From: Lophium mytilinum
Taxonomy: Eukaryota > Ascomycota > Dothideomycetes > Mytilinidiales > Mytilinidiaceae
Reading direction: 5' to 3'
NCBI GenBank assembly: GCA_010093605.1
Contig: MU004185.1
Coordinates: forward strand, 641,334 to 705,333
Length of the DNA stretch: 64,000 bases
Numbering within the stretch: the stretch's first letter is position 1; each line of letters begins with the position of its first letter. A program made the translations under genes and the position numbers. This document shows, piece by piece, positions 35,160 through 36,818 of this stretch. The notes beneath the pieces are model-generated. The model was given only the letters and a program-made list of their open reading frames with translations. It ran no database searches and was not told the origin of the DNA.

Positions 35160-36818
35160 TCATTTCTTGAAGACGAGTTTGAACTTGAAAGCAATCTGGA
35201 ATGCCGGGTCTTGTATAGCAACTTCTTCACCGTCTGATACTAGCTCGCTGAGAGTCTTGGATAGATTGGGTCTTGTCTGCTCTTCAAGCGCTGGAGGTGA
35301 TTGATAGTACAGAGACTTCGCCTCTGTTCGAATGGTGGGCTTCTTGAGTTGTCTATTTTGTCGTCAGCAACTGAAAGGCCTATTGACTCGGGTCAACTCA
35401 CGCTTCCGGCCTCTCTGCTAAACTATCGATGAACTCCTGGAGCGTAGATTTCGAGTCTACTTCAAGATTCTTGGCGAGATTGCCACAAACAGGGCAATCT
35501 GGCTTCTTCATGTGCTGGAAGGTGTAAGTGTAGACGCTCTCGTCCCCGGTATACATCATGTAGTTGTCGGTCTCGGGAATACCCAAGAAAGGGTTGCTGT
35601 TAGTAGCCAGTTTGAATGCCTCGTTGCAGCAACTCGCAGCAACAATAGCGTTCGTGGATGCTATGGCCGGTATGATGTTCTTCACGACTCCCTGGGTCAT
35701 AGAGTACGTGACTCCAGAGATGTTGAACTCTTGGGCTCGCTTCAAGGCCTTTTGGAAGAGCCAGGTAATATGTTCTGGATCATCTGTGTCGAGGGTGATG
35801 TCTAGAATAGCATGAGCACAACAAAGAAGCAATGATTTGAATTTCTCTTACCCTTGCGCTCTTCTTCCCAGGCAATGATGTGAGCCCATTCAATGCAATG
35901 CTGAGGCTGTCGGGGAATAGTTGCTAGCGTGCAAAGGGGCACCGCTGCTCGTGGTGCATGCATATCAAGTTGGCATTCTATGCAAGATGTCATCGTAGGG
36001 AATACAACCCTTGCCTGGCCCTTGAAGCCTATAGAGTGTTAGAACTCTAGACGAAATAATTGTTGAGTGTCGTTAAATTACCCTCCGTTCCACCGTCAAT
36101 CAGAGGCTTCAAGCTGTCCGGGTCCTCTTCGTTGAACAACCCAACGAGGGTGGCATTGATCCAACGACGGGCTTCAATGCTATCGAGTCCACACACGACC
36201 ATTGCGAACTGCATGTAATAGTCATCGTCCTTGTCCTGGATTTTGCCGCAGTATGGCGTGATCTTGACGCCCTTTACCCGCTTCTCAACGAAACGCGCAG
36301 CGACATCAGCTTTGTATTTGCCTACATCGGCGTGACGAAAGAGAAACTGTCGATTCAGATTCGAAACGTCGATGGTATCTGGAACCGAGATCAGCCTTGA
36401 ACTGAGCCGCTGGGCATCAAATCGTACCCATATCAATCACGTGAATGTCTTTGAAACCAGAGAGAGCAAGGTTCTTCAGAATCTCGCATCCTAAACCGCC
36501 TGCGCCGCTGCACGAGGTTAGCTTGGAAGGGACCTCAATTAGTCGGTTTTGACGCACATGACCCTAAGAACGTTAGCAGAAATTTACCGTCAGGGCAAAT
36601 TTGCGTCCATACAATATCTTTGCTCTTGACAAGCCTTCAATGACTGCTTCACCAGGCTCCCAGTCTGGATCTGTGAAGGGTCCCGGCCGGCTCAGAATCT
36701 TGTCGAGATACTTCCTGCGGACTGGAATCAGCAGCTGAAAACAAGCCAATAGGATCCTTATTTACCATCTTAGTCTCTGGGGGTCAGCCCCATTCATGTG
36801 GGCGGGGTCTGCTGCCAT
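35160..36818 (-). CDS. UBA3: NEDD8-activating enzyme E1 catalytic subunit UBA3, eight exons incl. 6-nt microexon
   Basis: Exons on the minus strand: 36818-36766, 36714-36613, 36563-36558, 36507-36428, 36378-36082, 36028-35852, 35801-35402 and 35352-35160; 435 aa. Exon 3 is only six nt (GGTCAT). With it the protein reads [18 protein letters not shown], the invariant nucleotide-binding strand and loop of ThiF/E1 enzymes; without it, two residues are lost. Later landmarks are [33 protein letters not shown], zinc Cys pairs SCIEC (195/198) and CPVCG, the catalytic Cys212 in [10 protein letters not shown], and the C-terminal E2-binding ubiquitin fold ending [12 protein letters not shown]3 with its ULA1/APPBP1 partner forms the Rub1/NEDD8 thioester and passes it to Ubc12 for cullin modification. 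It diverges from TEL2 across 267 bp. Confidence 0.93.

Follow-up and report, generated by a model that had tools for sequence, protein, structure and literature searches.

Within the 64,000-nt stretch of Lophium mytilinum DNA analysed here (the window), one minus-strand gene raises the question of whether six bases, GGTCAT, that lie between two apparent introns are an exon in their own right, or whether the 105 nt that contain them leave the transcript in one piece. The two answers differ by two residues in the strand that leads into the glycine loop of an E1 enzyme.

The UBA3 gene and the position of the hexamer

Judged by sequence and homology, the gene is UBA3, the catalytic subunit of the NEDD8-activating E1, an identity that an earlier note on this DNA had proposed. 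In our model it lies complete within the window, from 36818 to 35160 on the minus strand (as do all features below), with 8 exons and 7 introns encoding 435 aa. Exon 1 (36766..36818) opens with the start codon at 36818. Exon 2 (36613..36714) ends with AAGATATT, which encodes K and I and opens the codon for L with two bases; the hexamer follows as exon 3 (36563-36558), and exon 4 (36428..36507) starts with CGGCGCAGGCGGT, the last base of I and then the GAGG of the GxGGxG loop. Downstream lie exon 5 (36082..36378), exon 6 (35852..36028), which contains the sequence SCIECQLDM that we take to carry the catalytic Cys, exon 7 (35402..35801), and exon 8 with the stop codon (35160..35352). The introns measure, in order, 51, 49, 50, 49, 53, 50, and 49 nt, so that all fall between 49 and 53 nt.

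The predicted product contains a ThiF adenylation domain (PF00899; 189 bits against a Pfam cut-off of 28.1) and a full-length E2_bind domain (PF08825; 114.5 bits, profile positions 1-82 of 82, residues 352-433, encoded by exons 7-8), the domain that distinguishes UBA3 among E1s. When the N-terminal 160 residues are compared with PDB sequences, human UBA3 is the closest match (192.2 bits), followed by UBA1 (115.7) and SUMO-activating subunit 2 (93.7). In the fungus's own genome E2_bind has one match over the cut-off, a search with the E2_bind profile and a UBA3 query found no second UBA3, and the gene is apparently single copy. The Cullin_Nedd8 profile has three matches over its cut-off in the same genome, indicating that the NEDD8 pathway is present; across 14 control genomes, Cullin_Nedd8 matched once, below the cut-off, and E2_bind had zero matches.

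The hexamer is preceded by a 49-nt intron (36612-36564; GTATGG...TGCTAAC...TAG) and followed by a 50-nt intron (36557-36508; GTGCGT...AGCTAAC...CAG), both in phase 2. The earlier note had given the coordinates, lengths, and letters of all three elements exactly. Both introns have GT-AG ends and a CTAAC, with the branch A 9 or 10 nt upstream of the intron's end. At 6 nt and with GT-AG introns on both sides, GGTCAT falls within the size class of microexons (internal exons of at most about 30 nt). Together with the flanking exon bases, TT before it and C after it, the hexamer completes Leu-Val-Ile, and the joined product reads K-I-L-V-I-G-A-G-G-L-G. Because both junctions are in phase 2, inclusion is in frame and skipping is frame-neutral; removal of the whole stretch as one intron therefore keeps phase, loses Val and Ile, and gives KIFGAGG, just as had been noted from the letters. 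Reading through the 105 nt, as would follow from its retention, meets stops.

The earlier description of the two introns as having good donors, CTAAC branch points, and AG acceptors holds for the CTAAC and the GT-AG ends of both and for the downstream donor, GTGCGT, which 4 of the 61 training introns share. GTATGG, the upstream donor, is no more than fair, and so is the acceptor at 36564: under a splice-site model that had drifted, their scores are equalled or exceeded by 41 percent of the GT and 59 percent of the AG dinucleotides in 264 kb, respectively. (It should be noted that this self-trained model shifted towards background composition over its iterations, and is considered unreliable; it is not leaned on here for that reason. 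In addition, the training introns were chosen by a donor pattern without G at donor position 6, so GTATGG could not be fairly ranked.) The same drifted model gives the skipping pair 17.7, compared with 16.3 for the upstream intron alone and 19.8 for the downstream intron.

Splicing alternatives and the fit of the protein

Splicing was enumerated over 36660-36450 with one or two introns, each starting with GT or GC, ending with AG, and no shorter than 35 nt. The 154 solutions that were free of stops through exon 5 (33 with one intron, 121 with two) were then scored against one human UBA3 sequence. The microexon solution outscores all the others, at 466. The runner-up, at 457, is a variant with a one-base exon that places LTSCS where the microexon solution has SRAKILVI. 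Direct skipping scores 447. If the interval 36612-36508 were a single 105-nt intron, the hexamer would be a chance match and the fungus would make UBA3 with KIFGAGG. Such an intron has a usable donor and acceptor, keeps the frame, and, at 447, ties as the best one-intron GT/GC-AG solution, but it falls short of the microexon solution by 19 score units. Nor does relaxing the boundaries close this gap: among 3236 open solutions in which a single segment of at least 20 nt is removed between 36660 and 36450, with any boundaries, the maximum is 457, so that no single removal, canonical or not, equals the microexon solution. None of the 12 such solutions listed, of the 3236, has L-V-I before the loop. 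With the hexamer included, the best-matching human UBA3 chain scores 192.2 bits in phmmer instead of 182.4, and ThiF 189 bits instead of 178.5.

The strand and loop of E1 enzymes hold ATP, and homologues show which residues the strand carries. Prokaryote and viral contig collections were read without splicing using a 56-residue core query, which gave 3 viral and 55 genome loci. A GxGGxG-type pattern parsed 53 of these 58 (L050, L052, L076, L084, and L086 were dropped), a set that includes the apparent near-duplicates L030/L031, L057/L058, L066/L067, and L077/L079. In all 53, the second position ahead of the glycine loop holds V, I, L, or M. The first holds V, A, I, or L in 52; the exception, L043, has a stop at this position, which perhaps reflects a code difference. 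The included form, I-L-V-I, matches this pattern. In the skipped form, A-K-I-F, Lys stands at -3 and Phe at -1, and each of these is found in 0 of the 53 parsed homologues. Both the best-scoring splice solution and the homologues thus support the proposal that the residue pair ahead of GxGGxG is restored by the hexamer. Two of the loci, L034 (1830-1991, in a Planctomycetota MAG) and L042 (2767-2943, in a Clostridia MAG), appear to encode UBA1-like E1s of eukaryotic type, the former by its match to UBA1 structures (E 5e-28) and the latter as assessed by eye only; the bacterial bins that hold them probably contain eukaryotic contamination.

How often such a hexamer would arise by chance was gauged from 20,000 dinucleotide-preserving shuffles of the 105-nt stretch. 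A 6-nt segment between AG and GT, with room for both introns, occurs in 1,138 of these, and a hexamer coding hydrophobic V/I/L-like residues in 65. The exact Leu-Val-Ile hexamer is found in just 2, and a V/I/L-like hexamer with CTRAC in both introns in 1. The protein fit of the hexamer is beyond chance. The splice signals alone are less decisive. A strict two-intron pattern around an exon of 1-30 nt occurs at 2 places in 264 kb, counting both strands, and of these only the UBA3 hexamer has open flanks; five Markov-random sequences of equal length contain 0, 1, 0, 4, and 1 such structures, of which 0, 1, 0, 1, and 0 have open flanks. Because random sequence yields these structures about as often, the weight rests on the protein, and the signals permit the reading. 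With its lower score, its dependence on a chance hexamer, and a strand pattern that is absent from the parsed homologues, the single 105-nt intron is extremely improbable.

The same interval could also be viewed not as two introns and an exon but as a stwintron, a single complex intervening sequence whose nested introns leave in two steps. A total of 105 nt holding a pair each of donors, branch sites, and acceptors is reminiscent of the stwintrons described in fungi (PMC12403724, PMC9024468). However, the [D1,2] type requires a G before and a T after the internal intron, and the two introns here are flanked by T/G and T/C. In addition, the net product would again be the disfavoured KIFGAGG. 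We regard the chance of a stwintron as practically negligible.

How the proposed microexon may be spliced and where it may come from

Taken together, these results argue that GGTCAT is very likely a constitutive 6-nt microexon of the apparently single-copy UBA3. We infer its constant inclusion in transcripts because one UBA3 was found, because the NEDD8 pathway is present, and because loss of the two residues should disable the enzyme. Two ordinary introns of ~50 nt would stand six bases apart, inside codons of the first beta strand of the adenylation domain, and each, being short, would be recognised by the spliceosome as a unit through intron definition. If so, there would be no minimum size for the exon between them and no need for a special enhancer; the hexamer would have to accommodate only 3 bases after the acceptor and 3 bases before the donor. 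Joining would then complete the strand and loop that bind the nucleotide and that NEDD8 activation requires. Work on intron definition in fission yeast is cited in a Trichoderma paper (PMC11121469).

Since skipping is frame-neutral, it had been suggested that the hexamer could act as a switch for NEDD8 activation, that is, as a cassette microexon that is left out in certain circumstances, such that a UBA3 two residues short either lowers NEDD8 activation or acts as a dominant negative. Both ThiF and E2_bind are still detectable in the skipped product, and the 20-nt microexon of Trichoderma Xlr2 is reported to act as a switch that depends on glucose (PMC11121469). Nor does its length by itself speak decisively against the intron that skipping would create, since a loose scan of 264 kb gave 30 candidate introns of at least 100 nt among 102 (3 of the 102 at 100-110 nt), a class that is probably rich in false positives. 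Against this, skipping requires an intron of 105 nt where the 7 introns of the gene measure 49-53 nt, the donor at 36612 must bypass a nearer acceptor having its own CTAAC, and the resulting strand, with its Lys and Phe, is unlike that of any of the 53 homologues. Frame neutrality is the sole basis for the idea, which finds no support here. Moreover, because UBA3 is apparently single copy, steady skipping would only cost activity. A regulated switch is therefore very unlikely, and less likely again is its more specific form, in which condition-dependent skipping would make a UBA3 that binds its partners but does not activate NEDD8, providing a fungal splicing brake on cullin control.

For the intron pair, an origin through intron duplication or from an introner was considered and dropped. 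The mutual likeness of the two introns is at chance level (137 of 500 shuffles match or exceed it), and a search of the fungus's own 43-Mb assembly found no other copy of the 105-nt stretch; either origin is thus unsupported. A search of that assembly for 5.8S rRNA gave no hit. No fungal UBA3 orthologue was found in the viral and genome contig collections scanned. Within the fungus's own genome, the UBA3 query returned 8 matches, which include other members of the E1 superfamily (L003/L006, L005, L007, and L008; by their motifs these look like UBA1, AOS1, UBA4, and a TcdA-like protein, respectively). ULA1, the partner of UBA3, was not recognised among these 8 matches. A further member, the UBA2-like gene L002 (C8:338289-338459), appears by reading to have an intron just before the equivalent strand (...RIKD, intron, SRVLMVGAGG). 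The introns near the strand in this gene and in the UBA4-like L007 stand, again by reading, at other codons than those of UBA3.

Overall, the microexon reading is probably right, and on present evidence it does not reveal new regulation. It is of use to annotators, as automatic annotation could easily drop two residues from the catalytic strand of a central enzyme. It also suggests that a housekeeping gene can hold two introns of ~50 nt with only six bases between them, and, if the intron pair proves to be old in related fungi, it would offer a convenient natural substrate on which intron definition could be tested at the limit of size.

Comparison with known very small exons

No published report of a microexon in UBA3 was found in the open-access literature searched. 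In a human splicing-software paper, the one passage on UBA3 concerns an RT-PCR test and describes no UBA3 microexon. The "6-nt exon" of PMC4624585 is not comparable, since the term there refers to a 6-nt portion of exon 2 in a construct. Among plants, small microexons of 1-15 nt are often missed in annotation, and those of 1 nt in APC11 and VPS55 are reported to be conserved and confirmed by RNA (PMC8831610); these belong to a different kingdom, and NEDD8 does not appear in the main text of that study.

The other parallels are fungal. In the P450 genes of Phanerochaete the shortest exon is 6 bp (PMC1184071), and the case resembles the UBA3 hexamer in exon size, in its frequent small introns (45-55 bp), and in coming from a fungus; it differs in that it concerns another gene family in a genome-wide survey, whereas the gene here encodes an apparently single-copy E1 enzyme. 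An 8-nt exon in a P450 I-helix motif has also been described in Phanerochaete (PMC12940212). In Trichoderma virens, the 20-nt microexon of Xlr2, like that of UBA3, occurs in a filamentous fungus and lies inside a conserved domain; it is reported to respond to glucose, whereas the UBA3 hexamer is known from sequence alone (PMC11121469). A further comparison is with CYP621A of Fusarium, in which a 1-nt exon completes the PKG motif, as confirmed by RNA reads, and was compared over many orthologues (20 according to the abstract, 24 genes according to the discussion; PMC12940212). In both cases a tiny exon completes a motif, its omission damages a constrained site, and discovery began from homology. 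The CYP621A exon is 1 nt and its omission breaks the frame, whereas the UBA3 exon is 6 nt, frame-neutral, and described from the DNA of one gene. As fungal exons of 6, 8, 20, and 1 nt are already in print, the UBA3 hexamer would extend a known class.
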